Positions 1 through 59,401 of a DNA stretch of 64,000 nucleotides are shown here, in pieces. The DNA is from Porodaedalea pini (lineage: Eukaryota; Basidiomycota; Agaricomycetes; Hymenochaetales; Hymenochaetaceae), in NCBI GenBank assembly GCA_002794775.1, contig NBAY01000066.1:124001-188000 (forward strand), read 5' to 3'. Made by a program: the position numbers and the translations under genes. Under the pieces are notes generated by a model. That model made no database searches and was not told where the DNA came from. It was given only the letters and a program-made list of their open reading frames with translations. How positions within the stretch are numbered: the first letter of the stretch is position 1; the number at the start of each line of letters is the position of its first letter.

Positions 1-1165
1 CCTACTACACCAAATGTATCAAGAGCTATCGTGATCTACCCCTCAAGCCCAACCAGTGGATCAGTGTTGCGCGCTGGGAGTCCAAGAGCCCCGAGCCGTT
101 CCTCCGTACGCGCGAGTTCCTATGACAGGAAGGCCACACTGCGCATTTCACGAAGGAGGCCGACACTGAAGTACGGGAAATTCTCAATTTACATCATCGC
201 TTGTACGAGGTGCTGCTTACCGTACTCGTCATCACAGGCATCAAGTCGGACAAGGAGAAGTTTGCCGGTGGTCTTTACACGATGACCGGCCGTGGCATCC
301 AAGCTGCGACGCTGCATTGCCTTGGCCAAGACTTCTCACGGCCAGAGATGTTCAACGTCGTGGTCTCAGACCTGGATGATCCGCAGGGTACGGGTCCGAA
401 CGGTGGCAAATTATTCTGTGGCAGAACACGTGGAGCCTTAGCACACGCATGGTCGGAATCATGGTTATGATTCGCGGCGACAACCAGGGTCTTGTTCTCC
501 CATCACGTGTCACTCATTGTCCCCTGCGGTATTACCATGCGCACTAATAAGCAAGAGTTATAGGACCGCTGTGAGGAGCTCGCGAAGACGCTCAGGAAAG
601 CGCGAAGGTGGATGTACGGGACGGCTACACTCCTGGCTACAAGTTCAACGACTGGAAACAGAAGGCGCGAAAATTCAATTATTCCTTATTTCTCGGTTTT
701 CCTGTGGTCTTACAAATGGCTTTTTGTCCAGGTGTTCCACTTTGCCTTGAACTCGGTCCGGTTGATATCCAGAAGAAGCAAACACTTTCTGTGCGACGTG
801 ATACGGGCTTGAAGGAGACTGCCATACCTGCATTTCTCAAGACTATCCAACAGGAGATGTTCGAGCACGCGAAGGCAAGGTACATGTCTTGCCTGCGCGT
901 CGTGACAATGGGACGATGTCGTGCTGACATCGCTTCATACTTGCGTGCTCTCAAAACCGGCGAGACCAAGCTTCACAAGGTAGATTTTGTGGAACTCAAG
1001 ACCGATGCTGCGGCACGCCTTACATCGTCGCATGTACAAAAGGAGCTGCTTGCCGTACCCGTCATCCTGGGCATCAAGTCTGAGAAGAAGTTCGCCGGTG
1101 GTCTGTACATGATGACTGTGAAAGGCTTCATTCCGACGACCGGCCGTGACATCCTTTTAGTTTAG
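1..1165 (+). pseudogene. Prolyl-tRNA synthetase fragments, scrambled (copy 1)
   Basis: Several frames match cytosolic-type ProRS: the catalytic-core stretch around FAGGLYT and GRGIQAAT (about 230-470), the anticodon-binding-side stretch DRCEELAKTLRKA then GYKFNDW (about 560-660), and GVPLCLELGPVDIQKKQTLS followed by RRDTG (about 730-815). After the near-C-terminal KARY motif (about 885) the sequence jumps back to a piece from the N-terminal editing-like region (TGETKLHKVDF, about 958-990), and then to the FAGGLY core again (about 1095-1150). A real gene does not have this order. Stops and frame changes break every part. The fragment is about 230 bp from the TIR element end and is nearly identical in layout to the minus-strand copy at 26784-28041. 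ProRS would charge tRNA-Pro; this copy cannot. Confidence 0.8.
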
Positions 1166-1411
1166 AATTTGTTTAAATACACTCAATTGCCACAAGAATC
1201 TGTAAGAAAATGATTGAAAAGTTTGGAATGCAGTAAGAATGTGAATAAAAATGTGTAGAAAGGTATCGGAAACTAGTCAAATTACTCAAATCTGGAACGA
1301 TGCTTGGGAATCGTGCGGAATTGGAATACCTCCAAATTGGCTGGAATTGCTCAAATATTCCAGCTGATTCCAGGGATTCCAGGGATTCCGGCCAGGAGGT
1401 TTTTCCTGATG
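1..1411. mobile_element. Right end of a Pack-type TIR element (copy 1, truncated by window edge)
   Basis: The outer end at 1395-1411 (GGAGGTTTTTCCTGATG) is the same terminal sequence found inverted at 26528 and 58147 and in this orientation at 32426. Inside it, at about 1176-1390, is an AT-rich subterminal stretch full of short attcca/attctg-like words that aligns with the subterminal stretch at 26545-26780. A ProRS fragment lies further in. Just outside the end, a kinase coding sequence stops abruptly. The other end of the element lies beyond the window. No transposase is visible, so this is a non-autonomous member. Confidence 0.6.
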
Positions 1412-2267: not shown

Positions 2268-2476
2268 AAATCATTCGCGTAGAGACGGTACTAGGTGGAC
2301 AGGACTCACCAACTTTTCCTTCACGTGACCACTGCTTTATAATGCCTGCTATCTACTACAAACAGACCGCCAACCGCAAGAGGACAAAAGAAAACAGAAA
2401 AGATACTACGTAGAGCGTGAATGTGTGGTGTTCAGTAAATGGGGTGGGAAAGGTCATAAAGGTTTAAAGATCGTTG
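2268..2476. other. Spacer between kinase relic and LINE 3' end
   Basis: No gene is visible. The 3' end of the minus-strand LINE must fall somewhere here or just inside 2477, but there is no clear A-rich tail or target duplication, so the boundary is not assigned. Confidence 0.4.
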
Positions 2477-11343: not shown

Positions 11344-14300
11344 ATGTCCACCCACTACTCGCTACGAGGTTCGTCTCTATAGTGCGCAGCTCTGCTTGTT
11401 TTGACGTTCTCTGTAGTTATCCGTGTTCAAGATGTTCAGTGGAGGCCGCGTATTCTTAGAAAAATCCCTGACCTTTATGTTGAAGTAAAGCTCGGCCGTA
11501 TCATCAAGCGAACGCGGACAGTCAAGAAGAACTTATCGCCCACTTGGGATGAAACCCTTACGCTGTAAGTTTACTCTGTATATTGGCTTCAGAGATCCTC
11601 AGTACTTTCCTGTAGCCCACCTTCGGATCAATCTATCAAACTTAGTATCCGAGTTAAACACGCATCAGTCTTGCCTTCAGATCCTTGTGTTGGATTTGCT
11701 GTCATCAAGCTTGCTGATCTGGTGGCGAAGTGTGATAATGGCGAAGGTAATCTTCAGTTCCAATTATCATGCTTCTTGATTCATGTGTTGCCTATACCAT
11801 TAGCGGCCCAGATAAGTCTACATAGACCGTCCAGCAAAGCACTCGCGGGCATGGTTCATCTACGCCTCGAAATCGCGGACAGGATGACCGCCACCGATCT
11901 TGATCTCAAAGGCGCAGCACAGGATGTTCAACGGGCCAGAACTGGAACTTCAGGCTCCAACTCTGTCGCGTTTGCTGAGGGAGCCATGCAGTTGAACAAT
12001 GGCGGCGTTCTGTACGATTCTCTTTCAAACCTTTGCAAAACAATGAGCGTGTTCATTGGACTAATTGATGATGTGTCTAAAGTAAGTCTGTTGCTCTCGG
12101 TGGTGTTATTTGTTGATCTTTCAATGCGACTAGATTCATCCATATCTGAATGCTGCATGGCAAGTGACTTCAGCGCTGTACAAAGTTCGGTTGGAGAGCG
12201 ATCTGCTGTGTAGAATATTCCTTGACATTTATGTGTAGGTCATCTCGAAGCAGTTTGAAAGTGACGAAAAGGTCATCGATCTGGTTCGCACCATGGAAAA
12301 AGCCTTCGATTTCGCTCATGATACACAAACTTCGCTGCGCGATAAAACAAGAATTCTGGAATCATCCATCATCGACCTCTTACAGCAGATCAAGGAATGT
12401 TGTGAATTCATCCGAGAATACATGGCGCATTCGTTTGCTGGTGAGTTTCGTCAGACATAATGGATTCTCTTATAGCGTCAACCTTGTTTTCAGGACGAAT
12501 GCTCGAATTGAGCGCAAGCCAGCAAATAGACGAGTTCTTGAAGTCGCTGGCTGATTGCAAGGACGCCATTGATACGGGTCTTGTGCTTCACAATGCTATT
12601 ATTACAGGCCGAACGTCTGAAAAAGTCGACACTATATGTGCGTGTCTACCTCGTCCTGCCAGTGAGCTTTATAAGAACCCGTGTTTTAGATTTGCACCAG
12701 CGACTCAAGCCTGATGAACCGCTCCCACGCACGCGAGATACGTGCCTCCAAGGTACACGTGTTGGAATTCGTCGACAAGTCATCGATTGGGTAAACTCGG
12801 AATCCGGACCAAACATTCTTTGGCTATATGGCGTAGCAGGTTCCGGGAAAAGTACCATCTCCGTTACCATCTCAGACTACTTCCACGACATTCATCAGCG
12901 TGGTGCTTTTCTCTTCTTCGAACGGGGAAAAAGCGATCCCAGCTCCGTCATTCGGACCATCGCTTTCAAGCTCGCATCTTTTGATCGTTCTATCAGATCG
13001 CATCTCATCGATGAAATTGAGAAGGATGAGGATATTGCTTTTGCTTCGCCCGCGAGACAGTTCGATAAGCTTATTTTGCTGCCACTCGAAAATGCTGCTG
13101 TAAAGGGACCTATTGTCATCATCCTGGATGCGTTGGACGAATGCGGCTCGCCCGAGACTCGACGCGAGTTAATGCAGCTCCTTCAGCATAAATTCTCACA
13201 TCTATCTAAAAAGTTCAGGTTCCTTATTACGAGTCGACCGGAGAGCGATATCTGTACTGCTTTCTTATCGTCACAAGGCTCTGTTCGAGCAATCGAATTG
13301 GATTACACGTCAGTGGCCAGTCAAGATGATGTCCTTTCCTTCATTCGCATGGAAATGCAGCGGGCTGTTAGGGATCAGGTAGAAGTACCAAACGACTGGC
13401 CATGGGATGCAAACATGTTACTTCTCGGTAAAGGCTCAGGGGGGCTCTTCATATGGGCATCGACAGCTGTCAAGTTAGTTTCGAGCAGTTATAATCCGTT
13501 TCGAAAGCTAGAGGAGCTAGTCTCAGACTCCCGATCGCTTAATCGCTATGGCCTCGACAAATTATATGCCACTGTCTTTCAGAGTTCGGGAATTGCATGG
13601 GATGACGACGAATGCAGGGCCCACTTTTCGAAGATCCTTGCTCTAATCCTCTTTAGCAAGATTCCACTCTCAATTTCCACGATTGATGGCATTTTAGGCT
13701 TTCCGCCTCATGATTCATCACGATTTATTCTCTCTAGGTTTCAATGTCTACTCGCGTATACACCCAACACGCCCGTTCGCCTCTTTCACACCTCCCTTGT
13801 GGACTATCTGGTGTCATCCGATCGTTTCAGCGACCCCTGGTTCATTGACATTCCCGCCCAGCAAACGTTTATCACCACACGATCCTTCAATGTCATGAAG
13901 GGCATACTTTGCTTCAACATTTGCAACCTCGAGTCCTCATACGTGGCTAACGATCGCGTTCCGGGACTTCAGGATCGGATCGAAAAGAATATACCCTCGC
14001 ATTTGGCCTACGTGTGTTTGTCGTGGGCCCGACATCTTCGTGAGGCGCCACACTCGTCGATATTGCTGGATGCATTGTCAGACTTTCTGCACAACCACCT
14101 ACTGTACTGGCTCGAAGTATTGAGCCTATTAGGAAAGGCCATTCACGCCAGTCCGGCGCTTTTTGATGCTGTAACATGGGTAGAGGTGAGCATTAACTTA
14201 TGACGTGCAGCATATTGTTAATACTCTCGTCTAGACATCGGATGCAGCGACATCGGCTTTCTTAAAAGATGCTCAAGGCCTAGTCACTCGGTTTGCCCCG

Positions 14301-16511
14301 TGTATCTCACAAAGCTCGCCTCATATCTATCTCTCTGCAATTCCTCTTTCATCGAAGGAATCGAAGATATCGGCACATTATCTGAGGCGTTTGTCCTCGA
14401 TTGTACAGGTTGATCAACGAGGAGCCAAATCCCAGTCACTATTGCAAAAGATTTATTACCAAAAGGGCATGACGGGTGTCGCGTTCTCGCGTGACGGAAG
14501 ACGCATTGCAGTGGGCTTCGAGGATGGGATGATCAAGCTTTTGGATGCAGAAAATGGTGAAACTGTCACCGGGCCCTTCCTAGGCCATACGGATACCGTC
14601 TGGTGCCTCGCCTTTTCATATGACGGAACTCGCATCGTCTCTGGTTCTGAGGATCACATAGTCAAAATTTGGGATGCGGAAAGCGGTAAGCTTGTTTCTG
14701 GGCCTTTCATTGGTCATGCGGAGGCCATCCTGGCCGTCGCCTTCTCACCTGATGGAACGTGTGTCGTCTCCGGCTCCTGGGATGGGACAATTAGCATCTG
14801 GAATGCAAAAAGCGGGGAGGCCGTTTCCGGGCCTTTTGAAGGGCATGTCGACAGTGTCTACTCTGTCACCTTCTCACCGGATGGTACGCGTATTGTCTCC
14901 GGCTCCGACGATGCGACGATCGGAGTATGGGACGCAAAGAGCGGGGAGGTCGCTTCTGGGCCCTTCAAAGGGCATACGAGTGGCGTCAGATGCGTAGCCT
15001 TCTCTCCTGACGGCACTCAAATCGTCTCTGGCTCAAACGACATGTCAATCCGGGTTTGGGATGCAGAGAGTGGCGAAACTGTCTCTGGACCCTTCGCGGG
15101 ACATACGGATGATGTGCGGTCCGTTAGCTTCTCTTCTGACGGTACGCGCATTGTCTCAGGTTCCGACGATAAAACGATCAGGGTTTGGGACGTGGAGAGT
15201 GGGGAGGTCGTATTAGGGCCCTTCGAAGGACATACGAACAATATTTACTCCGCCGTCTTCTTGCCTGACAGTACATACATCCTCTCAGGCTCTGAGGATG
15301 AGACAATCATAGTATGGGATACAAAAAACGGCGAGACTGCTATTCAAGCGCACACATCCGGCGTCGTGTCCGTCGCCCTCTCTCCTGATGGCTCTTGCGT
15401 TGCCTTGAGTTTCCGGGATCGGTCAATCAGGATCTGGGATATGGAGAACGGCGAGGTCCTTTCCGGACCCTTCGTTGGACACACAGGCATCGTCTTGTGC
15501 ATCGCCTTTTCGCATGATGGCAGCCTTATTGTCTCCGGGTCTGAGGATAAAACAATCATGGTTTGGGATGCAAACAGCGGCCAGACTGTCTCTGGGCCTT
15601 TCATCGGCCACACAGGCAGTATCTTGTCTGTTGCTTTCTCGCTTGATGGTGCTCGCATCGTCTCGGGCTCCGGCGATAAGACAATCAGGGTCTGGGATGT
15701 AGAGAGTGGGGAAGTTATTTCGGGACCTTTTGAAAAGCATAGGGCGCGCGTCATGTCTGTTGCCTTTTCGCCTGACGGAACACGGGTCGTCACGGGCTCC
15801 CAGGATAAAACGATCAAGGTCTGGGATGCAAGTAGTGGTGATGTTGTTTCTGGAGCCTTCAAGGGACACGTGGGCGGTGTCTGGTCCGTCGCCTTCTCGT
15901 CTGATGGCACACGGATTGTATCTGGGTCGGAGGATGAAACAGTCAGGGTTTGGGATGCAGAGAGTGGCTGGTTTATCTCAGGGCCCTTCAAAGGGCATAC
16001 AAGTCTCGTTACGTCCGTCGCCTTCTCGCCTGACGGGACGCATATCGTCTCGGGTTCTTGGGACAACAAGATTAGAGCCTGGGATGTGGAGAGTGGCGAG
16101 CTCATTCCCGGATCTTTCGAAGGCCACACAGGAAACATTTTGTCCGTCGCCTTCTTGCCTGACGGGACCAGCATTGTCTCTGGCTCCAGCGATAATACGA
16201 TTAGGATCTGGGATACAACAAGGAGAGAGGTTGTATCTGGGTCGTTCGAAAGGCACACATTTGCGTCGATTAGCGAGTCGTCTGCCCCGTTACATGACGA
16301 TAAGGTGTTTTTGAATTGGCTCTTGCATGAAGACGGATGGATACGCGGTGAACAGGGTGAATTACTGTTATGGGTTCCTCCTGACCTTCGTGGTACACTT
16401 TGGCGTCCTCAGAACACTGCCATTCTCACCCGTGGATTCTCGACGAAGCTGGACTTCACGAACTCCGCTCATGGTGAGCATTGGGTTGATTGCTTTAAAC
16501 CGCCTCAATGA
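11344..16511 (+). CDS. NLR-like protein: C2 - helical region - NACHT - 14 WD40 repeats (intact)
   Basis: Nine exons splice in frame: 11344-11368, 11417-11564, 11616-11746, 11804-12081, 12134-12184, 12239-12440, 12494-12637, 12690-14185 and 14235-16511, giving 1583 aa. Residues about 10-110 look like a C2 domain (DLYVEVKLG, SPTWDETLTL). Next is a helical segment, then a NACHT NTPase with Walker A GVAGSGKST (about 375-383), Walker B IVIILDALDECG (about 466) and RFLITSRPE. About 900-1500 are 14 WD40 repeats of about 43 residues, ending in a conserved tail with LLLWVPPDLR. STAND NTPases of this plan sense ligands with the repeats and signal through the N-terminus, in fungi often in self/non-self recognition; that role is inferred. 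The C2 part suggests membrane binding. All splice sites are GT-AG and no stop interrupts it. A paralog with the same exon plan is at 32930. Confidence 0.9.
14450..16260 (+). repeat. 14 tandem WD40-coding repeats (about 129 bp unit)
   Basis: Units share the core AFSPDGTRIVSGSEDKTI and the linker WDAESGEVVSGPF, with a period of 43 codons. Repeats 1, 7 and 8 are the most divergent; the others are very alike at DNA and protein level. Variation concentrates just after the GH dipeptide (TDT, AEA, VDS, TSG, TDD, TNN and so on). Fourteen repeats would make two seven-bladed propellers. Confidence 0.9.
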
Positions 16512-25789: not shown

Positions 25790-25935
25790 TAGTCATCCTG
25801 ATATTCGTCCACATCTTGGCGTCCTCAAAATACGGCCATGTTTAGTTGTGCATCTTTGATTAAACTGGATTTCAGCAACGCCGTACATGGCGAGCGCCAG
25901 CAGGGGCTTTATTCCATTTCCTTGAGACTATAATC
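25790..25935 (+). pseudogene. C-terminal tail fragment of a C2-NACHT-WD40 gene
   Basis: The stretch with cctcaaaatacggccat (25822) followed by aaactggatttcagcaacgcc aligns with the tail of the NLR gene at 38030-38165, coding PQNTA-x-FSC then KLDFSN and HG. Frame changes and the lack of any WD repeat upstream show a relic. The sequence after it aligns with the downstream flank of the second NLR gene. Confidence 0.65.
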
Positions 25936-26527
25936 TCTATTCATTGCCTTCTACTGATAGCTTTCTGATTGTCCTGAGGATTGACACAATATTAATCTGA
26001 CCTTGTATTTTCATACTTATTCCTTATTCTAGCATATACAATAACTCTGTACACCTCCAAGTTCTGGGTATTAATATATATACATTTACCAATCCATCCA
26101 ACGTTTCGATCCAAAACACACACAACCCAAGCATCATCATCAACTTGTCATCATAAAGGTACATCATGAAAGCACTTCCAGCCATCTTTCTTCCCTCAAT
26201 GTGGCTATCTGCAAGGACGTTGAGACCGCTAAGACAGAAGCCTTCCACTGCTGCCACATGTGTCATGGGCTGAGCCAATGCCTTCGAAGGTGGCGAAACA
26301 AGGAAAGACTCCACAGAGTGAAGGAAGAAAGCGATGTACAGTAAGGCTTGGTGAGTACAGAGGATCTTGGGCTTTATAGTTACGGAGGCAACGAATGTGA
26401 ATGACGACAACACATTGATGCTCAGTACCTCGGACACAGCGGAAGTGGATGAGTGGGAAGAGATGGAGGTGTATCCACACGCTTGGCCGGGAACAAATTG
26501 CGACGGAGGGGGGAGAGATGCAGCATG
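25936..26527. repeat. NLR-downstream block, copy i (left part, cut by the TIR element)
   Basis: Sequence around 26260-26520 (gggctgagccaatgccttcg, then ctcagtacctcggacacag) aligns with 39000-39275 and with 47825-48070. The block resumes at 32427 on the other side of the TIR element. Confidence 0.6.
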
Positions 26528-26783
26528 CATCAGGAAAAACCTCCCGGTCAGAAACCGTAGAATATATAGAATCTGTAGAATATTCAAGCAATTCCAACGG
26601 ATTCTGGCCGATTCCGATTCCAACGGAATCCCAAGCATCGTACGATTTATGAGCAGATTCTATGTATTCCAATAAATTCTAATGGCATTTCACACCATTT
26701 CTTACCGGTTTTAGGTGGCATTCCAAACTTTTCAATTATTTTCTTACAGATTCTTGTGGCAATTGAGTGTATTTAAACAAATT

Positions 26784-28041
26784 CTAAACTAAAAGGATGC
26801 CACGGCCGGTCGTCGGAATGAAGCCTTTCACGGTCATCATGTACAGACCACTGGCGAACTTCTTCTCAGACCTGATGCCCGGGATGACGGGTACGGCAAG
26901 CAGCTCCTTTTGTACATGCAACGATGTAAGGCGCGCCGCAGCATCGGTCTTGAGTTCCACAAAATCTACCTTGTGAAGCTTGGTCTCGCCGGTTCTGAGA
27001 GCACGCAAGTATGAAGCAGTGTCAGCACGACATCGTCCCATTGTCGTGACGCACAGGCAAGACATGTACCTTGCCTTCGCGTGCTCGAACATCTCCTGTT
27101 GGATAGTCTTGAGAAGTGCAGGTACGGCAGTCTCCTTCAAGCCCGTATCACGTCGCACAGAAAGTGTTTGCTTCTTCTGGATATCAACCGGACCGAGTTC
27201 AAGGCGAAGTGGAACACCTGGACAAAAAGCCATTTGTAAGACCACAGGAAAACCGAGAAATAAGGAATAATTGAATTTTCGCGCCTTCTGTTCCCAGTCG
27301 TTGAACTTGTAGCCAGGAGTGTCGCCGTTCCGTACATCCACCTTCGCGCTTTCCTGAGCGTCTTCGCGAGCTCCTCACAGCGGTCGTATAACTCCTGCTT
27401 ATTAGTGTGCATGGTGATACCGCAGGGGACAACGATTGCTTGGACGCGAGCGATGCGTGATGGGAGAACAAGATCCTGGTTGTCGCCGCGAATCATGACC
27501 ATGATTCCGACCATGCGCGTGCTAAGGCCTCACGAGTTCTGCTACAGAATAATTTACCACCGTTCGGACCCGTACCCTGCGGATCGTCCAGGTCTTCGAC
27601 CACGACGTTGAACATCTCTGGCCGTGAGAAGTCTTGGCCAAGGCAATACGACGTCGCAGCTTGGATGCCACGGCCGGTCGTCATGTAAAGACCACCCGCA
27701 AACTTCTCCTTGTCCGACTTGATGCCTGTGATGACGAGTACGGTAAGCAGCACCTCGTACACGCGACGATGTAAATTGAGAATTTCCCGTACTTCAGTGT
27801 CGGCCTCCTTCGTGAGATGCGCAGTGTGGCCTTCCTGTCATAGGAACTCGCGCGTACGGAGGAACGGCTGGGGGCTCTTGGACTCCCAGCGCGTAACACT
27901 GATCCACTGGTTGGGCTTGAGGGATAGATCACGATAGCTCTTGATACATTTGGTGTAGTAGGGATACATAGCCGTTTCTGTAGTCGGACGGATTGCTATG
28001 GGCTCCTCAAGCTCGGAGCTCCCTCTGAAGACGCATGTCAT
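26784..28041 (-). pseudogene. Prolyl-tRNA synthetase fragments, scrambled (copy 2)
   Basis: The mirror image of copy 1 at 1-1165, with the same scrambled order: [20 protein letters not shown] core start, FAGGLYMTTGRGIQAAT, DRCEELAKTLRKA, GYKFNDWEQK, GVPLRLELGPVDIQKK, then the N-terminal piece GETKLHKVDF and a second FASGLYMMTVKG core piece. Stops and frameshifts match copy 1 at several points, so the scrambling happened before the two copies separated. ProRS reads toward the TIR end at 26528. It is a pseudogene, but transcription across it cannot be excluded. Confidence 0.8.
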
Positions 28042-28985
28042 ATCGACCTTAGTCAGCGCCTATAATACTTGTCAGCACAAAGTGAGGGATTATAGAACAA
28101 TCAATGCACGTTCGTATACCAACCCGGAAAGTCGACCTCTTTCTTCATGCCAATAGCAATCTTCACCGTGCCGTCAATTCTCCCTTCCTCTTTCGTTGCC
28201 TTTTCCTGGGCGGCAATTGCAGACGTGCACACAGCAGGCACCACAGCCTCAGCCTTGAGTTCCACGAAATCTACCTCGTGAAGCTTGGTCTCCCCGTTTC
28301 GAGAGCACGCCAGTATGAAGCAATGTTAGTTCCAGGGAGAAGACAATAAAATCAGAGGCGAGGGCATGTACGGCGAAGAGGGAAGTCGATGATGTGAGTG
28401 CTCTACACTCACCCATCTCCTTGATTCTTGCGTTGAATCGTTATGTTGGCAAGTAAGGACCTGAGATGCAGATGCTTGTTTTTTCAAAATACCTTGTACT
28501 GCTTCCCAGATGATGTGCAGCCAGTGATTAAGACTGCAGCATCCACTAACGCTGTAGTAGTCTAACATATCGGCCTTGATCAGCACCTATGATACTTGTC
28601 AGCACTAAGTGAGGGATTACAGAACAATCAACACACGTTCGTATACGATACCGGAAAGTCGACCTCTTTCTTCACGCCAAACGCAGCCTTCACGGCGCCG
28701 TCGTTTCTCCCTTCCTCTTTCGCTGCCTTTTCCTGAATGGCAATTGCAGACGTAGGCGGAGCAGGCGCCGCAGCATCGGTCTTGAGTGTCGCGAAGTCTA
28801 CTTCGTGAAGCTTGATCTCCCCGGTTCCGAGAATGCGCAAGTATGAAGCAATGTTAGTTCCAGAGAGGAAGACAGTATAATTGGAGGCGAGTGCATGTAC
28901 AGCGAAGGGGGAAGTCGATGATGCGAGCGATGCATCAAGGACCGTGACAACCTTCGGGGACGTGTTGGCATCGGTTTCGACGAGG
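28042..28985 (-). pseudogene. ProRS N-terminal region, with a partial tandem duplication and retained intron
   Basis: Minus-strand reading gives VLDASLASSTSPFAVHAL and GTGEIKLHEVDFATLKTDAA (editing-like N-terminal domain side), then VKKEVDFPVSYTN, an intron of about 50 bp, and LIKADMLDYYSVSGC, the start of the catalytic region. A second copy of the GETKLHEVDF-to-YTN segment and its intron lies at about 28080-28340, so a unit of roughly 525 bp is partly duplicated in tandem. The retained intron (GTGTGTTG...ATCATAG) shows that capture was from genomic DNA and not from mRNA. Confidence 0.7.
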
Positions 28986-29004
28986 AAGCGACATTCGCAT
29001 TGAA

Positions 29005-31041
29005 CGGGCTGGTAGCAGCGCTGATACGGTGCACGCTCAAACAGGTCGGCAACGAGTTTGGCATCAGCCTACTTCGCCTCAATAGCAGACATGACAAGCT
29101 TCTCGACGAGAAAATGTTGATGCTCCGAGGGAAGTACGGAGAAATACTCTTCCGCATCGTCGAGATCGCGGATAGCGAAGAACTCCTTGCGTTCCTGGTC
29201 AATCTTCTTTTCCGCTTGCTCCTTCGACATCGACAATTTTCCCAGAGTCCTTCTCGAGAATCTCGTCCTCCTCGCCCTCCTCGCCATCATGAGTCTCAGC
29301 GGGACTATTCTCCGACTTCTCCTGTAAGGGTCGAACGCGGAAGCAGGTTAAGTCTGGGACGCTGAGCAGGCTGGGCAGGTTCCACAGGTGCATTGTGGGT
29401 CAAGTCGACGCTCGTTGTACGGCTTGACAGGCGACTTGGACGAGACGAGGATGTAGTAGGAGCCTCATTAGCGGCCTCAGCGGCCTGCAGCATCTGGAAC
29501 ATGTTCGTGTTCGAATTTGTCCTTGAAAGGCTCGCACTGTTACGCTTGCTGTCTCCCTTCTTCGTGAAGACGCTAGCTGGTCCGAAGTTCATGGTTCCAC
29601 TGCCATTCTGAATTCTGCCAAAGTTCGTCAGATCGCCCGCCTTGGTTGCAGGCCTCGAAGGACCAGAGGCGACAACCCATCCGTCAGGACCCACTTGAGC
29701 ATTTCCGTCACGATCATGACCACAGCGTGAACCACCACGAAACATGGCCGACTGTGCCAAGTTATGTTGCTCCTGTCGTGCCTTCTCTTTCGCGGCCTGT
29801 ATATTGGTAAGCACAAGTGAAATTTGCTAACAAAGCAAGAGCGCGTACAGCCTCATGAATCAGGGCGATTGTCGACGGAGCAGCGACCAAGTTGCGGGTA
29901 GTCCGTTTCCTTTCCCGCAATTCAATCACATCCTGTCCAAGAAAGTCAGCTCAACGAAAGGCTATGAAACAGAAGGTACGCACTTGTAACATGAACTACA
30001 TACGAGACGACACGTTGCTGCTCTTCGCAAGCTCCTTCATCCGACTGAAATAGACATCCATGTGTCCGCGAGCCTTAGAGGTATCGAGCGCCTGACAAAC
30101 ACTTGTCAGTAGTTTACATAAAATTTCGATCCCTTCCTCCTCGGGATTGTCGACGTTGCTGAGCAGCTTCTTGATACACTCATACATGATACGCTCCATG
30201 AGCATCTGAAGATTGAAGAGCTCACCGATGAACTTGACGAGTCCGAGACCTTGACGCTTGGCCTTCTGAGCAGTGTGGTATTCGTCCGAGTACAGCGCAC
30301 TCTCGCCAGCCTCCTTGTTTTCTTCCTTTTCGTTGGCATCCTTAACAGCCTGATCCTCTGTCGTCTTCACGAGAACCGCTGCCGCCATCGACTCCTTCTG
30401 CGTCCAGCCGCGCTCGAAGTCTTCCTGACAGCGATTCAGAAGGTACTTACGGAAAAGTTGATCACCTGTAATCGGCTTGCCCTCAGCATTGCGGATACCA
30501 TCATCCTGCACGTTCGGACTGATCTGCTCCATCATCTTATGGCACAAGCGAGCATACATCTCACTCCAGGCCGCCTCATCCGTTGCCTTCTCGAACACAA
30601 GCAGAATGAGCTGAATGAGCGTACGCCCATCCTTCTCACTCTCACTCTTGTTTGCCCACGCAACGATCTGGTTTGAGATGGACTCCAACTTCTCCATAGT
30701 GGGCTTGTTGAGCAGCAAATGGACTTTCTTGTCCACAATCTCAGGTGAGTCTGTGTCAATTGAGGCCCCACACCTGGACGTGCTGCCCGCGGCCCAGCGG
30801 TTCGCAAACTGCTCGAGCGGCGCGACGTGTTCGAAGGAGGAAGTAGCGTTCACTTTGAACTGATTGGCAGAAGCGCTGATACGGTCCGACGTGTTGCGTG
30901 TTGAGCCGCCACATTTCCTACGCGTACGCTTGTTGCCCACAGCGCCCGCGCCACCTGACTCGAAGAGCGAACCATAGGCGATGGACACCCGCCTGCAAAT
31001 GGAGGGCCACCGTGCCCACCACTCATTGACGTCGAGCGCAT
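29005..31041 (-). pseudogene. Translation initiation factor eIF4G fragment (MIF4G domain), captured pseudogene
   Basis: The MIF4G core is long and clear: LLNKPTMEKLESISNQIVAW near 30710-30650, LFEKA-like VFEKATDEAAWSEMYARLC, NRCQEDFERGW, KRQGLGLVKFIGELFNLQML and GHMDVYFSRMKELAKSSNV. A retained intron (about 29985-29940) precedes DVIELRERK. Downstream are the Ser/Arg-rich linker and EYFSVLPSEHQHFLVEKLV. Functional eIF4G bridges eIF4E, eIF4A and eIF3. Here an in-frame TAG at 29998-29996 replaces the glutamine expected before FMLQ. A second TAG at 29071-29069 and a frameshift near 30960 also break it. At about 29005 the eIF4G sequence gives way to ProRS sequence in the same orientation. Confidence 0.85.
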
Positions 31042-31339
31042 GAAGCGCTCTTCACTTGACAGTTTGTTCAGTGCAGAGAAGTTCAGACTTTACGGTCTTC
31101 GGCTTGAAGATGAGCAAGTTGAAAGTCGGAAGTCGGACGGCATGTTGCCTGCAGCAGTGACCAGGCGGCCGGCGAAGCTACCACTTCGTGTGTGATGGTT
31201 GTGGTGGATGTGATCGAGGGTTTTTTTTAGACGTTCTGTAAGGACGTCGGCACCAGACAAGGCGATATGTGGCATGTCGCGTCAAAACCAACATACACGT
31301 GATCAAGTTCCCACACCTCTTCTGTGGACGACGCATCCA

Positions 31340-32065
31340 CTGATCCAGGTGTGGGAAATTGGACTTAGCAGTTTTTGTCACCTGAAGTACCTCCAAATAC
31401 AAAATACATCATATCTCACTCAATTCTTCACAAAAACTCTTCAAAAAAGTTGCTAAATTCATGTTTCAATGGTTTCTAAAATTTATGTGAGCTTAGAGGA
31501 CAGAAGGTGGAATATTGAGGCTGCAGTAGTGAGAATGGGTGTTTTTCTAGAAAAACTCCTTCCCTGATTTTTCCTGAGCTCAATTTTGAAGCTAGTGACA
31601 TGAAACTTGTTGGAAAATGGTATCTATATTGTATATTAAATTATAGATGGCTTATAACAATGCAGACATTTTTTGACAACTGCCTGAGTCAAACAAATTT
31701 GGGTGAGTTTGAGAGTTTCAGCACAACAGTCAAACAGGACAAGAGGAGACATTCACTCTAGTTCATCCCTCATAACATCAGCAGTATAATATATAGACCA
31801 TTCTCCAATGAGTTTCATGTCATTAGCTTCAAAATTGAGCTCAAGAAAAATCAGGGAAGGAGTTTTTCTAGAAAAACACCCATTCTCACTACTGCAGCCT
31901 CAATATTCCAGCTTCTGTCTACTAAGCTCACAAACATTTAGAAGCTGTTGAGAAATGAATTTGGAAACATTTTTGAAATGATTCTGTGAAGAATTGACAG
32001 AGATATGGATTTTACAAGTTTTTGAGGTGCTGAAATGCTCAAATTTTGTGATCTTCACATATGCA
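31340..32065. repeat. Large imperfect foldback (inverted repeat), nested in the TIR element
   Basis: The left arm (about 31340-31620) and right arm (about 31800-32065) are inverted. The best part is 31540-31605 against 31815-31880, which shares gtttttctagaaaaac and caattttgaagcta. Matching continues, less well, to about 31340 and 32065. The roughly 200-bp centre is AT-rich. CpG is rare. It looks like an old MITE or foldback insertion. Confidence 0.7.
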
Positions 32066-32426
32066 TGTCTCAAGACTTATGAAAAACACTGTAACCTGCA
32101 GATAGTTCATGGGTCCCAGTATAGGTCCAAGAAGCCAATCTAGTGCCTGCACCTGTGTCAAGCCATGGCAGAATCTAATGAATTCCACAATCAGTTTTTT
32201 ATTCTAAAAAATTCCATAGAATCTATGAGGTGTGTCATTTTTCTATCCATATTCTAAATTTCAAGCTGCTGATTCTGTTCAATTCCAAAACTTGGACAAT
32301 TTTCCATGAAATTCTACAAGTTTTCTAAATTTCGGACTGCATTCTCATGACATTCCAAAGATTCTACAATTTTCTACAATTCTAATAACTTTCTAAGGGT
32401 TTCTGAGCGGGAGGTTTTTCCTGATG

Positions 32427-32929
32427 ATCTTCCTGAGACTTAGAAGAGAACGTGCAATGCATTACAAGGCAAGGAAGGTCATGTGAGTTTTAAGCAGAAG
32501 AGAAGCTGGGAACGCTCGAAGCAGTACTCCTGAAGAAGGATTCTGAGGGGGCACCTTATACTAGTTATAGTCGCCGTTGACAAGTTTTTAGATGCTCAAC
32601 AGCTTCGACATGCACACACGGTGGGACTACAACACACATGTCGTGTAAAGTGATGGGGACGGAACACGATAGATTTAAATGTGGCAGAATTGATTTTCAG
32701 TCACAGTACTCGAGAGTCAGAAGGAGAGTAGTTACACTTACAGACAGCAGAAAACCAAGCTAAGTGGGTCACGTGACTATGAAGCCAAACGGTCCTCGTG
32801 TATCAATGCTCTGTTTTTAACTCGAGTTGCCATCATGCTTCCAGTCCATAAGACCTTGAGCGGCGATAAGGCGATGATGGGCTTAGGGCATGCTGCAGAT
32901 GCTGAGGTCGACCTTGTCTTCTCTCCACC
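32427..32929. repeat. NLR-downstream block, copy i (right part) and upstream region of second NLR gene
   Basis: The sequence atcttcctgagacttagaag at 32427 continues the block cut at 26527. It aligns with 39275-39360 and 48072-48180 (gtcgagcagaag-like motif), then with 48260-48330 (agcttcgacatgca). The last 100 bp hold the leader of the second NLR gene. Confidence 0.55.
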
Positions 32930-35900
32930 ATGTCCACTGAGTTCTCCCTACAAGGTTCGTCTTTATATCATGCGGCTCTATCTGTTTTGACAATGACATC
33001 CTCTGTAGTAATCCGTGTTGAAGGCGTGCAGTGGGAACACCATTTTCATAGCATAGTGCCCAACCTTTATGCTCAAGTGAAGTTCGGCGATGCTATCCAG
33101 AAGACGCAAACAATCAAGGACAAATCACCCACCTGGGACGAGACTTTCACGCTGTAAGTGGTCCTATAACAAATCAATCTCGGAGATTTCATTACGTGCG
33201 CGTAGCCCATCGTCAGATGCATCTGCGGTTCTCACAATTGAAGTCAAGCATAGATCTTCACTTAAGGGTCGAAAAAGTATGTGTGTTGGCTCCATCAACA
33301 TCCAGCTCGACGAGCTTTTCAGCAAGTGCGCTAATGGCGAGGGTAAGCTACATTTCCAATTTTATTAGTACGTGGCTTGTGCTCAGCATGAACTACCTTT
33401 AGCCCAGCTAAGCCTCCATCCGCCGCCTGGAAAAGCATACAGAGGGCCCACAATTTTTGTTTATCTACTCGACACCGTCAAAACGATAATGGACATCAAG
33501 TGTGATGTTTTGGCTGCCGACCAGGCTGTTCAGCTGAGCGGAACCGTGAGCTCAGCCTCGGGTGCAAAGTTTGACGCGGTCGAAGAGCTGGCTACTGAGC
33601 TGGACAACCAGAGCGAGCTATACAAATGTCTTGTAAGCCTTTGCGGAAAGTTTGGCTTATTCGCCGATATTATTGATGCACTATCTGAAGTGAGTCTTAC
33701 GTTCTTGATAATAGAGACTATTGATTGTTCAGTACTATTAGGTTCATCCATATCTACATGCCGCGTGGCAAGTGACCTCATCTCTATTGAAGGTACGTTA
33801 TAGATCAATTCACTGTGTGAAAGACTTACATGGTCAGCTTTGCATAGGTCGTTTCAAGACAGTTCGAAAACGACAAGTCGGTCGTCGATCTGGTGTGCAT
33901 TATGAAAGAAACGTTCGACTTTGTCTGTGAATTCGACGATCTTCCCAACAAGATTCGGAGTCTTAAACAGTCTATCATCAAACTCCTCAAACAAACCACC
34001 GAATTCTGTCTGTTTGTTCGAGAATTCACCTCACCTGGGTTCTTCGGTAAGCCTATCTGCTTAAAGTCGTATTTTTATTTCCGAGGAAATGACATTTATG
34101 CTAGGCCGGGTTCTCGATATGGTCAGTAGCACTCGGAAGATAGATGAGTTCAAGAAGAGCTTCGACTCGCTCAAGGAAGAACTCAGCTCGAGAGTAGCCC
34201 TGCATACTGCTTTTATCTCAGCACGAGTATCTCAAAACGTCAACACGTTAGGTGTGTGTCAAACTAATATTGTTATTGGACTTCGCTGAAATCCCTTCAT
34301 CAGTCTTGAAGCAGCGTCTGCGACCGATGGAGAAGAATGCATCCGACCGTCCTCGATGCCTTCTTGGGACGCGCGGCGAATATTTGAATCAGGCCATGGA
34401 CTGGCTGTTTTCGGATACAAGCAAGAACGTTATGTGGCTTCATGGAGTCCCCGGTTCCGGGAAAAGTACGATTGCTGCGACGATTGCGGATTATTGTAGT
34501 GATATGTCCCGACTCGGGGCGTTCCTGTTCTTTGAACAAGGAAAGGCCGAGTACAGCTCTATTATTCAGACGATTGCCTTCAAGTTGGCATCTTTCGACT
34601 CGTCGTTCGCCCCACACGTCATCGCTGCTCTTGACCAGAACAAGAATATCGAAGACTCTTCACCTACGAGGCAGTTCCAGAAGCTCATTTTGGAACCACT
34701 CGATGCTGCCAAAGACGATGTACAAGGCCCTGTCCTTATCATCCTCGATGCTTTGGACGAATGCGGCACGATCGGCAAAGGGAGTAACCTAATCCAGTTG
34801 CTCAAGGTCGAGTTTTCGAAGCTTTCTTCGAAGTTCCGCTTCCTCGTCACGAGCCGGCCAGAAGGTGATATCGTGAAAGCCTTGTCGTCCCAATCACACG
34901 TCCTCGAAATCGAGCTCGATCACAGTTCGAAGGAGAGTCGACATGATGTACGCGTCTACATTGATCGTGCGATGCGGGATGCGGTGATAGAGCCAATACC
35001 GGAGGGTTGGACATGGGATGATAAACTGAATGTCCTTGGTGATTCTGCGGATGGGCTTTTCATCTGGGCATCGACCGCGGTCAAACTAGTCCAGCTAGCA
35101 ACATTTCAATTCGCTTATATCGAGAAATTGGTCTCAAATGCGAAGTCGCTTTCTCTTCAAGAGCTATATGTCACCGCACTGCGCGATGCGCTTTCTTGGG
35201 ATGACACGACAAAATCTATATTTCAAAATGTCGTTTCTTTTATTCTTTTTGGCAAGACACAGCTCTCCGACAAAGCCATCGATGGGATGTTACACCTAGC
35301 TCCTCCCATGGGATCAGCTGCCATTTTTTCGAAACTACAAGCTCTGATCGCATATAAGCCCGGAGAGCCTGTTCGTATCCACCACGCGTCTTTTGGCGAC
35401 TACCTCACGTCACCCGCCTGTCCCAATCCTTGCGTAATACACCCCGGCAGTGCGAGACTGTCGCAGTGTATCGGTGGCCCTTGGCTCATTGATGCTCCCA
35501 TCCAGAAGCATTTCGTCGTCATTCGGTGCTTTTCTGTCATGGAGGACATGCTTCACTTCAATATGTGCGATCTCGAGACGTCTTTTGTCCAAAACGATGA
35601 TGTCGTAGGACTAGAAGATCGTGTCAAGGACAAAATTCCGCCACATTTGGCATATGCATGCCTTTTCTGGGCTCAACATCTTCGCGATGTTCCATATTCT
35701 TCTGACTTGCTCGAGAAATTGTCATTGTTTGTCATGCATCGCTTATTATACTGGTTTGAAATACTCAGTCTACTGAAGAAGCTCGGTCGCGTTGCTAGCC
35801 CAGCTCTCCTCGACGCCGTCAAATGGACTGAAGTGAGTACACGTATATTTGAAGCGCATATGTGACTGACTCCAGACAAGATGTATGACACGGATATCAC

Positions 35901-38165
35901 CTCGTTCTTAAGGGATGCTAGCACCCTCGCCACTGTGTTTGCCGTACCGATCACACAAAGCACGCCTCATATATATGTCTCTATGCTCCCTCTTACTAAG
36001 CAGGAGTCAATGATCTCGGCTCATTATTCGAAGCAAGCGTTCTCTTCGCTACAGGTGGATCGAATAGGAACGAAAATGGCACCACTATGGCTAAAAGTGA
36101 TAGAAGGACATACGAGCTATGTCTTGTCTGTCGCCTTCTCGCCGATGGTAAGCGGATCGTCTCGGGCTTTAGCGATAGGACGATTATTGTCAGGGATGCG
36201 GAGAGTGGGGAGGCCGTTGCTGGACCTTTTGAAGAGCACACGGACAGCGTCAAGTCTATGGCCTTCTCTCCTGATGGAAGGCTCGTTGTCTCAGGCTCCT
36301 TTGATAAGACAATCATTGTCTGGAACGCAGAGACTGGAGAAATGGTTTCCAGGCCTTCTGAGGAACACATTGACAGTGTCAGCTGCGTTGCCTTTTCGCC
36401 TGAGGGGACACGCATAGTCTCAGGCTCCAATGATAACACAATCATGGTTTGGGATGCAGAGAGTGGAGAGGTCATTCTTGGACCTTTGAAAGGACATACG
36501 GACTATGTCAACTCTGTTGCCTTCTCGCCTGACGGGAGGCACATAGTCTCGGGGTCTGGTGATAAGACGATCAGAGTCTGGGACGCGGAGACTGGGCAGA
36601 TCGTTCTCGAGCCTTTCACAGGACATACGGGCTATGTCAAGTCTGTCGCCTTCTCGTCCGATGGGAAGCATATTGTCTCGGGCTCCCAGGATAAGACGAT
36701 CAGGGTTTGGGATGCGGAAAGTGGGGAGGTCGTTGTCGGTCCCTTTGAAGGGCACATACACTCAGTCTACTCCGTTGCCTTCTCGCCAGATGGGAAACGC
36801 GTCGTCTCTGGTTCCCGTGATAGCACGGTCAGGGTCTGGGATGTGGAGAGTGGCGAGCTCGTCTGCGGCCCTTTTGAAGTTCATACAAATACCATTGTGT
36901 CCATTGCCTTCTCGCCTGATGGCAGGCGCATCATCTCCGGCTCCTGTGACAAGACGATCAGAGTCTGGGACGCGGAAACCAGCAAGGTCGTTTCCGTGTC
37001 TTCCGAAGGGCACAAGACTGGCATATATTCCGTTGCCTTCTCGCCTGACGGACGTCTAATTGTCTCAGGCTCTGGGGACAACACAATTAGGATTTGGAAT
37101 GTAAAGAGTGGCAAAGCCCTTGCCAGACCTTTCGAGGGGCATACGGACCGTGTCCGGTCCGTCGCATTTTCTTCTGACGGAATGCGCATTGTCTCGGGCT
37201 CCAACGATAAGACGATCAGAGTTTGGGACGCAGAGAATGGCGAACTCGTTTCCGGACCTTTCAAAGGGCACACGAACGCCGTTTGGTCTGTCGCCTCCTC
37301 ACCTGACGGCACGCGTGTCGTCTCGGGCTCTTGTGATACCCAAATCATTATCTGGAATGCAGAGAGTGGGGCAATTGTTGCTGGGCCTCTCAAAGAGCAT
37401 AGGTCCGCTGTTCAGTGCGTTGCCTTCTCCCCCGATGGTGCGCGTGTCGTCTCAGGTTCCGATGATAAGACGATCAGAGTCTGGGACGCAGAGAGCGGGG
37501 AAGTCATTGCTGGGCCTCTCATAGGACATTTGATGAGTGTCTGCTCCGTCGCCTTCTCCCCTAATGGCATGCATGTTGTCTCAGGCTCCGAGGATACGTC
37601 GATCAGAATATGGGACGCAGTGAGTGGGGTTGTCATTTCTGGGCCTTTCAATGGACACACATGGCTCGTCTCGTCTGTTGCCTTTTCGCCTAATGGAACT
37701 TGCATTGTCTCCGGCTCGTGGGATGGGACGATGAGGGTTTGGGATGCGGCGAGCGGAGAAGTCACTTCCGGGCCTGTCAGCGGGCACCCGGACGGCATTA
37801 CCTCTGTCACCTATTCTCCAGATGGGACGCACATTGCCTCTGGATCCTGGGACAAGACAATCAGGGTTTGGGACGTGGCGAGCGGGAATATCATTCCCAA
37901 GCTTTTTGAAGCGTACACAGACGCCGCCTCGTCTGTCGCTTTGTCGCCTAACAATGAAGACTTTTCGAATTGGGCCTTGGCTGAAAACGGATGGATATTA
38001 GGTCCCCACCGCGAATTGCTCTTATGGGTTCCTCCTGATATTCGCCCCACTCTTTGGCTTCCTCAAAATACGGCCATTTTTAGCTGTGCATTTTCGACTA
38101 AACTGGATTTCAGCAACACCGCACACGGCAGGCGCTGGCAGGAATGCATTACGCCACCTGAATAA
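32930..38165 (+). CDS. NLR-like protein: C2 - helical region - NACHT - 14 WD40 repeats, frameshift in first WD repeat
   Basis: Nine exons parallel the paralog at 11344: 32930-32954, 33009-33153, 33206-33342, 33403-33689, 33742-33792, 33848-34046, 34105-34251, 34304-35832 and 35881-38165. C2 is seen in NLYAQVKFG and SPTWDETFTL. NACHT has Walker A GVPGSGKST (about residue 377), Walker B VLIILDALDECG and RFLVTSRPE. The 14 WD repeats and the tail LLLWVPPDIR follow. In the first repeat, GCCGATGG at 36141-36148 lacks one base compared with the other repeats (GCCTGATGG or similar). The propeller therefore falls out of frame after about residue 928, and translation would stop at 36417. A potential 56-bp intron (36148-36203, GTAAGC...GGAG) would restore the frame. 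So it is either a recent pseudogene, a truncated C2-NACHT protein, or rescued by splicing. All upstream exons are intact. Confidence 0.85.
36090..37920 (+). repeat. 14 tandem WD40-coding repeats of the second NLR gene
   Basis: Period 43 codons with core AFSPDGTRIVSGSDDKTIRV. Repeat number equals that of the first gene. As there, the residues just after GH vary (TDS, IDS, TDY, TGY, IHS, TNT, KTG, TDR, TNA, RSA, LMS, TWL, PDG). Confidence 0.9.
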
Positions 38166-58146: not shown

Positions 58147-58479
58147 CATCAGGAAGAACCTCCCAGATGGAAAACAGTGGAATTGCTAGAATCAGTTGGA
58201 ATTTCTGATTGATTCCGGCTGATTCCATTCCATCTAATTTTATAAGGACGTTCCGTATTCGACGTATTCCATTGTATTTCACCTATATTCTGGATCTTTC
58301 TCTGATATTCTCTTAGCATTCAAATCATTTCTTTGTGCATTCCGAAAGTTGTTCAATATAAACTATGCCATTCCTTATTCATTCCATACATGTCCATAGC
58401 TACTCGACACCTACTTGATAAACAGGTCATGGAGCACACCAGGAAAATCACTGTGAATCATGGCCATGATGCTGATCGT

Positions 58480-59401
58480 AGGTACGGCAGCCTCCAGCTC
58501 TGCGAGTGCTATTGGCGCCTTCACGCCCGTATCACGTCGCACAAAAAGTGTCTGCTTCATTTGGATGTCGACCGAGTTTGAAGTGAAGTGGATAAAAAGC
58601 CATTTGTAAGATCACATGCAAACCGAGGAATAAGGAACAACTGTATTTTCACGCCTTCTGTTCCAGGAGTGCAGTCGTCCTGTACATCTGCCTTTGCGTG
58701 GGTACCAGCTTTCCTGAGCACAGTGGTCGTATAACCCCTGCTTATTAGTACGCACGGTGATACTGCAGGGGACAATGATTGCTTAGATGCTCACGATGCG
58801 TGGTGGGAGAACAAGACCCTTGTTGCCGCCGTGAATCATGACCGTGATTCTGATCGTGCACGTGCCTCGGCCCCACGAGTTCTGCCATGCAAATAATTTG
58901 CCACCATTCGGACCTGTACCTTACGGATCATCCGGGTCTTTGACCGCAATGTTAAACATCTCTGGCTGCAAGAAGTTTTGGCCAAGGCAGTGCGACGTTG
59001 CAGCTTGGATGCCATGGCCAGTCGGAGAAATGAAGCCTTCCACGGTCGTTGTGTACAGACCACCCGTGAACTTCTTCTCGGACTTGACGCCGGGGATAAC
59101 GGGTACGGCAAGCAGTTCCTTGTACACGCAACGATATAAGTCAAGAATTTCCCGTAGTTCAAAGTGTCAGCCTCCTTCGTGAGATGCACAGTGTGGCCTT
59201 TTTGCAATAGGAATTTGAGCGTATGGAGGAACGGCTGGGAGCTCTTGAAGTCCCAGCACACAACACTGATCCACTGGTTGAGCTTGAGTAGTAAATCATG
59301 ATAGCTCTTGATTCATTCGGCATGGTAGTGATACAGGGTCGTTTCTGTGGTCGGACAGATTGCTATGGGCTCCTCAACCTCAGAGCTTCCTCTGAAGACG
59401 C
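58480..59401 (-). pseudogene. Prolyl-tRNA synthetase fragment (copy 3), split by an LTR element
   Basis: Minus-strand reading gives [51 protein letters not shown] and [19 protein letters not shown], in the normal ProRS order, then SVRRDTG-side sequence near 58560-58500. Unlike copies 1 and 2 it keeps VEGFI...[11 protein letters not shown] contiguous, so it may be closer to the first capture. Similarity resumes for about 25 bp after the LTR (60391-60420, acgcatatgttatgtcgag against 28032). It is broken by stops and frameshifts. Confidence 0.75.

Follow-up and report, generated by a model that had tools for sequence, protein, structure and literature searches.

In plants, Pack-type elements are known to give rise to new gene mosaics, and the mechanism by which DNA transposons take up host sequences is still debated. 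Plant Pack-CACTA and Pack-TYPE elements belong to CACTA and hold many different captures (PMC8903248, PMC13317346), and animal Pack-TIRs, mostly hAT and Tc/Mariner, are multicopy elements spread by transposition for which template switching with short microhomology was proposed (FoSTeST model, PMC8277862). Host-gene capture by fungal DNA transposons is also known: in the ascomycetes Pyrenophora tritici-repentis and Mycosphaerellaceae, the housekeeping gene for histone H3 was transduplicated and amplified by hAT elements through transcript capture, the copies being RIP-inactivated or potentially active (PMC3538342, PMC6710886). Gene-carrying transposons were also described in the basidiomycete Pleurotus ostreatus, but these are rolling-circle Helitrons (PMC4289320). 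Finally, PlavakaB elements of Agaricomycotina have termini CATCA..TGATG and a 2- or 3-bp target site duplication (TSD); their families are presented as classified by transposase, some of them with a TET/JBP gene (PMC12730594). Among the literature matches listed, which leave most subscription papers outside, none presents a Plavaka element that has taken up pieces of housekeeping genes.

In this study, we report an element of Porodaedalea pini that is very probably a non-autonomous PlavakaB element (CMCT clade), the interior of which would have been replaced by genomic DNA from ProRS and eIF4G genes and which would have been moved in trans. It shares its termini and 2-bp TSD with PlavakaB, and relatives bearing these ends code for PF18759, whereas the element itself lacks a transposase and holds pieces of two housekeeping genes. 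It differs from the plant elements by its fungal host, by its Plavaka ends and by its uniform cargo, the same ProRS/eIF4G sequence being found in 34 of 35 exact non-Plavaka terminus pairs (the last one unread). Animal Pack-TIRs differ from it by their superfamilies; here the ends are those of Plavaka, and serial back-jumps between two genes are seen. Unlike the hAT/histone H3 case, intron sequence is kept, two genes are involved and the ends are those of Plavaka. The element lies in a window of 64,000 nt, the whole stretch that was analysed (contig NBAY01000066.1, positions 124,001-188,000, forward strand), with the following main features:

26528..32426, no strand: probable non-autonomous Pack-type PlavakaB element, 5899 bp (TIR pair and at least nine further full-length copies)
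26528..26556, plus strand: left terminal inverted repeat, starting CATCAGGAAAAACCTCCC (TIR pairing and genome terminus search)
32398..32426, minus strand: right terminal inverted repeat (TIR pairing and genome terminus search)
31410..32007, no strand: foldback region with arms of 155 nt (92%) and 71 nt (80%) (DNA comparison)

The inverted termini that the initial annotation had placed around 5.9 kb are indeed there: they are 29 nt each, 97% complementary, and read CATCAGG..CCTGATG. Its claim of ProRS and eIF4G content with no transposase also stands, on the evidence of a MIF4G domain, DNA matches to host genes, a Plavaka search and Pfam scans of ORFs. Indeed, the genome-wide Plavaka search gave no match inside 26528-32426, and no transposase Pfam domain was found in the five element ORFs scanned, where MIF4G was the sole Pfam match.

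A genome-wide search with the terminus, which the initial annotation had called for, revealed a dispersed family. The 18-bp terminus occurs at 267 sites (133 + 134) with at most two mismatches, the reversed control giving 0; with at most three mismatches, it is found 4 times in the window for 0.06 expected. At least nine further full-length copies, 95-99% alike, were identified when 28 of 302 candidates were scored. Among the 39 exact terminus pairs less than 30 kb apart, profiles detect MIF4G or ProRS in 30, DNA comparison detects ProRS in 4 others, Plavaka lies in a further 4 and 1 is unread. Two of the long pairs devoid of profile matches were read (C41 and C14:442172), and they show ProRS-element sequence on both sides of uncharacterised stretches. 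Some long pairs, chiefly C90:25547-52555, may join ends that belong to two elements. In the window, two relatives had been missed by the initial annotation:

1..1411, minus strand: terminal part of a second family member, truncated at the window edge (91% to element 1-1435)
about 58147..59401, plus strand: third relative, more diverged, which bears ProRS sequence and whose terminus has one mismatch (terminus and DNA comparison)

Elements with these ends (CATCAGGAAAAACCTCCC, hereafter TIR-A) coexist with others, TIR-B, whose ends read CATCAGGAAAATGGCAAA and share only the first 11 bp with them. The TIR-B elements on C24 and C71 lie within a 12.5-kb duplicated block that is 98.8% alike, as would be expected if segmental duplication, and not transposition, had copied ends and gene pieces together. 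This explanation is nonetheless very improbable for the family, as the flanks differ among the ten 5.9-kb copies, contrary to an occurrence of the termini only within larger duplications, which the initial annotation had named as fatal to its reading. Moreover, 28 of the 31 terminus pairs read are bordered by their own exact 2-bp TSD, expected by chance for 1 in 16 each, an adjacent TSD being absent from the other three, window copy included. Paralogous sites without the element were also compared for 8 of the 13 insertions tested; an uninterrupted match was lacking for the other 5. These sites, all from one genome, provide the copies lacking the element that had been looked for, and include that of the window copy, in the light of which its TSD may be read as follows:

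26525..26526, no strand: putative left 2-bp target duplication AT, an interpretation from the paralogous empty site L122 (C38:266785-267023)
32427..32428, no strand: putative right target duplication AT (comparison with the same empty site)

The base at 26527 (G) would then read as an extra base ahead of the terminus, a reading based on an empty site that is only 84% alike. From the dispersed copies and the empty sites, we infer that the element is, or has been, mobile.

Transposase-bearing relatives with these ends, for which a search had been suggested, were also found. Plavaka (PF18759) transposases lie inside four elements with the same termini (on C36, C7, C3 and C6), all with exact 2-bp TSDs; the frames of the C36 element match Plavaka with E-values of 1.1e-23 and 2.4e-77. 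The closest relative is the C6 element, in whose Plavaka the profile search shows a single in-frame stop and which has about 190 bp in common with the pack element at each end:

26528..26711, no strand: left end common to the Plavaka-holding C6 element (85%, element 1-184 versus L013)
32238..32426, no strand: right end common to the Plavaka-holding C6 element (94%, element 5711-5899 versus L014)

Beyond the ends, no interior sequence of the pack element recurs in the Plavaka stretches compared.

We assign the element to the Plavaka superfamily (CMCT clade), not to Mutator. Its ends are of the CATCA..TGATG type and 2-bp TSDs flank 28 of 31 pairs, AT standing, to judge by the empty site, after one extra G in the window copy; since it encloses no transposase, it is filed in PlavakaB only as a non-autonomous member. 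Helitrons are not known to have TIRs or a TSD, and Mutator elements have a TSD of 9-11 bp. For hAT, the TSD is usually 8 bp (PMC12730594). None of these signatures is found here. It is true that gene pieces are reported to be carried in fungi by hAT elements and Helitrons (PMC3538342, PMC6710886, PMC4289320), and also by Mutator (PMC8903248, PMC8277862), and that the transposase search of the genome covered Plavaka. Yet TIRs with a 2-bp TSD do not fit a capture by any of the three; both agree with PlavakaB, and Plavaka is enclosed by the same ends, so that we regard such an origin as highly unlikely. The element also agrees with the definition of Pack-TYPE elements: TIRs and TSD of a known superfamily, no transposase, and parent genes outside such elements. 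These are an eIF4G gene on C33 and a ProRS gene on C57, around which no CATCAGGAAAA end was found within the 4.0-5.0 kb stretches examined.

The cargo reads as a mosaic of genomic DNA in which an eIF4G piece sits within partly repeated ProRS sequence:

31084..31259, minus strand: 5′ ProRS piece (75% to host ProRS locus)
29031..31083, minus strand: captured eIF4G piece, genomic DNA, holding MIF4G (92% to host gene on C33, L052 1811-3868)
28968..29030, minus strand: second eIF4G piece, 63 bp, which separates the main one from ProRS (81% to L052 2010-2073)
28410..28972, minus strand: ProRS piece (88% to host ProRS locus)
28039..28398, minus strand: ProRS piece (90%), whose host coordinates overlap those of 28410..28972 (internal repeat D2)
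27018..28040, minus strand: ProRS catalytic-domain piece (85% to host ProRS locus)
26933..27022, minus strand: short repeated ProRS piece (91% to host ProRS locus)
26795..26930, minus strand: short repeated ProRS piece (86% to host ProRS locus)

The MIF4G domain was detected in the ORF 29996-30988 (E 2e-38). As the four other ORFs gave no Pfam match, ProRS was identified by DNA comparison, at 75-91% identity to the host locus. The closest named eIF4G protein matches are from Phellopilus nigrolimitatus (79% and 77%). The main eIF4G piece matches the host gene at 92% identity across 2059 bp, unbroken through an inferred 51-bp GT..AG intron after L052 2911, and the ProRS matches are likewise to genomic sequence. 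While a processed transcript (retrocopy) has a published fungal precedent in the histone H3 of Dothideomycetes hAT elements (PMC6710886), the retained intron sequence and the genomic ProRS matches leave it hardly any credibility here.

Has the cargo been kept by selection, as a truncated eIF4G protein or as a source of foldback small RNAs acting on host ProRS or eIF4G? The MIF4G fragment is stop-free in 17 of 34 TIR-A and 1 of 8 TIR-B copies compared (indels dropped), and the long foldback recurs in the TIR-A elements of 3.9 kb and 3.87 kb that were read. However, open frames are expected in young copies anyway, and the captured MIF4G drifts neutrally: the 34 TIR-A copies show 48 synonymous, 125 nonsynonymous and 5 stop changes, against 54.6, 118.6 and 5.9 under neutrality, and neutral proportions are also observed among the 8 TIR-B copies and between the A and B consensus. 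A functional cargo is therefore unlikely. An apparent 753 aa open frame of C30 proved to be no real ORF, L057 having none of at least 200 aa; ORFs of 205-278 aa are found once in L055 and twice in L056.

The A and B consensus have 27 differences in common from the host gene C33a, 25 synonymous and 2 nonsynonymous, and C33b has 10 of these 27 bases. These data speak against a direct derivation of the eIF4G piece from present-day C33a and suggest that its source had diverged beforehand. This source looks like a functional gene distinct from either of today's C33 genes; it may be a paralog since lost or come from another species. A fast-evolving host branch is a possible alternative. For ProRS, host and element were compared six times: three comparisons show a synonymous excess (p 0.007, 0.022, 0.048), whereas the other three do not (p 0.37-0.62).

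The same three-part junction, from eIF4G 3868 to eIF4G 2010-2073 to ProRS 1431, is found in TIR-A and TIR-B elements. Because it stands under two end types, although the MIF4G consensus sequences differ at only 38 positions, with changes in neutral proportion, the cargo seems to have had its ends exchanged. That the chimera passed between Plavaka families with different termini, its eIF4G source being also unlike the present C33 genes, has in our view about even chances. In addition, the ProRS-only element L103 has ProRS sequence at the place where others hold eIF4G. Such intermediates suggest that the cargo was assembled in at least two steps, ProRS first, the eIF4G piece being then set inside it, although the ProRS-only state could alternatively reflect a secondary loss of eIF4G. 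All pieces share one orientation, with back-jumps; judged by eye, their junctions overlap by about 0-5 bp, and two of them show gaps of 2 and 11 bp. This junction pattern fits template switching, which may have built the mosaic while a broken element was being repaired or replicated.

Altogether, we favour a non-autonomous PlavakaB element whose relatives with the same termini would provide Plavaka transposases acting in trans, leaving 2-bp target duplications, while the cargo would drift as a neutral passenger, as shown for MIF4G. Since the Plavaka stretches compared have ends, and not interior, in common with the pack element, we infer this mobilisation from shared ends, copies and empty sites. 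The proposal of a non-autonomous family that captures and moves gene fragments is supported, but "captures" holds only for a single lineage of cargo, whose assembly took at least two steps; in the family examined there is no evidence of an ongoing capture of many different genes.

For genome annotation, caution is advised, as most matches to ProRS and MIF4G in this assembly are located close to element ends and do not correspond to host genes. A single genome brings together likely intermediates, namely Plavaka elements, pack elements with ProRS only, others with ProRS and eIF4G, and this chimera flanked by different ends; the host genes for ProRS and eIF4G stand beside them, as do empty sites. 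With these, capture order, the exchange of ends and template switching become amenable to testing in a fungus.

We found the inverted termini noted by the initial annotation at the borders of the pack element, with CATCAGGAAAAACCTCCCGGTCAGAAACC at 26528-26556 and GGTTTCTGAGCGGGAGGTTTTTCCTGATG at 32398-32426. The window covers C66:124001-188000 of a 53.3-Mb assembly (201 contigs), through which this terminus type (TIR-A) is also dispersed: its 18-bp terminus occurs exactly at 133 places (50 + 83), and allowing up to 2 mismatches gives 133 forward and 134 reverse occurrences, against 0 for the reversed control. At least nine further full-length copies, 95-99% identical, lie on contigs C78, C44, C15, C18, C62, C14, C43, C19 and C90, a lower bound from a scoring that covered 28 of 302 candidates; there are also partial copies and shorter variants of ~5.4 and 5.05 kb. 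The window itself holds related features.

Family features in the window (window positions)
1-1411: end of a second family member, cut by the window border, ProRS pieces, 91% to element positions 1-1435
31410-32007: long foldback, arms of 155 nt (92%) and 71 nt (80%)
58147-59401: third, diverged relative bearing ProRS, terminus CATCAGGAAGAACCTCCC

The second member has an exact terminus at C66:120922, on the contig carrying the window, and its opposite end, at window 1411, has one mismatch. The foldback is matched in other TIR-A elements examined.

The proposed ProRS and eIF4G content was resolved into eight pieces, placed against the host genes on C57 and C33.

Cargo pieces in gene-strand order (positions in host stretches L051, reverse strand, for ProRS and L052 for eIF4G)
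1: ProRS 1034-1219
2: eIF4G 1811-3868
3: eIF4G 2010-2073
4: ProRS 1431-1994
5: ProRS 1476-1838
6: ProRS 2134-3223
7: ProRS 1549-1638
8: ProRS 2404-2540

The exons of the C33 host eIF4G are long and open, and the frames of the C57 host ProRS run from MSGANVV to GRSY, followed by a stop. The eIF4G match is unbroken across an inferred 51-bp GT..AG intron, and the captured material is thus genomic DNA. Judged by eye, the pieces appear to overlap by ~0-5 bp where they join, and two junctions have gaps, of 2 and 11 bp. The genome has three such loci (stretches L052, L053, L068): two long eIF4G genes ~31 kb apart on C33, and an eIF4G-like stretch at C24:314502, whose differences from one of the two, C33a, are mostly synonymous (59 synonymous, 30 nonsynonymous, 1 stop).

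Among 31 terminus pairs with both flanks read, 28 show an exact 2-bp target site duplication (TSD; chance 1 in 16 per pair), the exceptions being C14:586425, C25:387033 and the window copy. When the two flanks of 13 sites were joined and searched for, 8 sites had an uninterrupted counterpart and 5 (C78, C18, C19, C90 and C10:416946) had none. These 8 were compared. At C44, C43, C10:87951, C15 and C62 the empty site is clean and the occupied copy shows the 2-bp duplication; C4 agrees with this but is ambiguous by 1-2 bases, and C14 shows TT on its left side and an unexplained AC on its right. The window copy has a paralogous site without the element, the lack of which was to count against transposition: it lies on C38, is 84% alike across 139 bp and reads CAGC-AT-CTTCC. 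The occupied site, CAGC AT G (element) AT CTTCC, can be read from this alignment as an AT duplication with one extra G on the left.

The search for relatives combining the same ends with a transposase, as suggested initially, led to Plavaka. A genome-wide Plavaka (PF18759) profile search returned 64 rows, and four exact terminus pairs enclose a match.

Plavaka inside exact terminus pairs (each with a profile match and an exact 2-bp TSD)
C36:371139-382885
C7:494687-508176
C6:982462-1003021
C3:1262020-1287239

The C36 frames match Plavaka with E values of 1.1e-23 and 2.4e-77. The C6 element, whose Plavaka match has one in-frame TGA, has 184 bp at its left end (85%) and 189 bp at its right end (94%) in common with the pack element. 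Once merged, the matches form 21 places; with a limit of 12 kb, 10 have an exact TIR-A end nearby, 4 a TIR-B/C-like end and 7 neither. PlavakaB families are described, in a passage of a 2025 paper, with CATCA..TGATG termini and TSDs of 2 or 3 bp (PMC12730594).

The 39 exact terminus pairs shorter than 30 kb hold MIF4G in 26 (including the window element), ProRS only in 4 and Plavaka in 4 by profile; 5 have no profile match, and of these the 4 compared as DNA contain ProRS, the fifth being C24:47691. Long pairs may in some cases join ends of two elements, C90:25547-52555 for example. In the ProRS-only element L103 (C71:1869-5734), ProRS 1032-1247 and 1316-1631 stand at the place of eIF4G, which in the 5.9-kb element sits between ProRS 1219 and 1431; both share the ProRS jump from 1838 to 2134. 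On these sequences, the simplest reading would be that ProRS was captured first and eIF4G later, but L103 may also reflect a secondary loss of eIF4G.

The same cargo is found under other ends. Indeed, the element at C24:30798-36547, with terminus CATCAGGAAAATGGCAAA (TIR-B) and TSD AA, carries the pack element's junction (eIF4G 3868 - eIF4G 2010-2073 - ProRS 1431). At up to 2 mismatches, this terminus has 57 occurrences (29+28, against 3+1 for the reversed control), of which 29 are exact and 23 read CATCAGGAAAACAGCAAA (TIR-C). By the same 12-kb limit, 18 of 59 listed ProRS loci are near an exact TIR-A end, a further 28 near a TIR-B/C-like end and 13 near neither; the corresponding figures for 70 listed MIF4G loci are 44, 9 and 17. 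The last group includes host genes and element copies with mismatched ends. Around the TIR-B pack element, C24:26500-41000 and C71:14000-27000 share a 12.5-kb block at 98.8% identity (L058, L055, L059-L061), inside which LTR-like 686-bp direct repeats lie ~10 kb apart.

We compared 46 MIF4G sequences chosen from 89 rows (34 TIR-A, 8 TIR-B, 2 host genes, 2 others) with simulations preserving the mutation spectrum.

Distinct MIF4G changes, observed (simulated): synonymous; nonsynonymous; stop
TIR-A copies: 48 (54.6); 125 (118.6); 5 (5.9)
TIR-B copies: 49 (49.5); 91 (91.2); 3 (2.7)
A versus B consensus: 10 (10.3); 26 (26.7); 0 (0.8)
Host C33a versus A consensus: 31 (14.2); 16 (32.2); 1 (1.6)

Within and between TIR-A and TIR-B, observed and simulated counts are close, and captured MIF4G copies therefore drift neutrally; the C33a comparison departs from simulation, so the line to the host gene was under purifying selection. 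Of 27 differences from C33a common to A and B, 25 are synonymous and 2 nonsynonymous, which suggests that the eIF4G source was a functional gene other than the present C33a. For ProRS, the selection comparison gave a mixed picture.

In the neighbourhood, two NACHT/NPHP3_N reading frames (12569-16511 and 34252-38165) each precede a long WD40 array with 129-nt repeats, a layout typical of fungal NLR-like genes. A direct repeat pair (25809-25904 and 38047-38142; 83% alike, 12.2 kb apart) flanks the pack element and the second NACHT-WD40 cluster, one repeat per side. On the minus strand, 2477-7293 holds LINE-like reverse transcriptase, RNase H and endonuclease frames.

In plants (PMC8903248, PMC13317346) and animals (PMC8277862), DNA transposons are known to capture host genes; in fungi this is known for histone H3 in hAT elements, reported as transcript capture (PMC3538342, PMC6710886). 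No Plavaka element with such cargo is among the literature matches listed.
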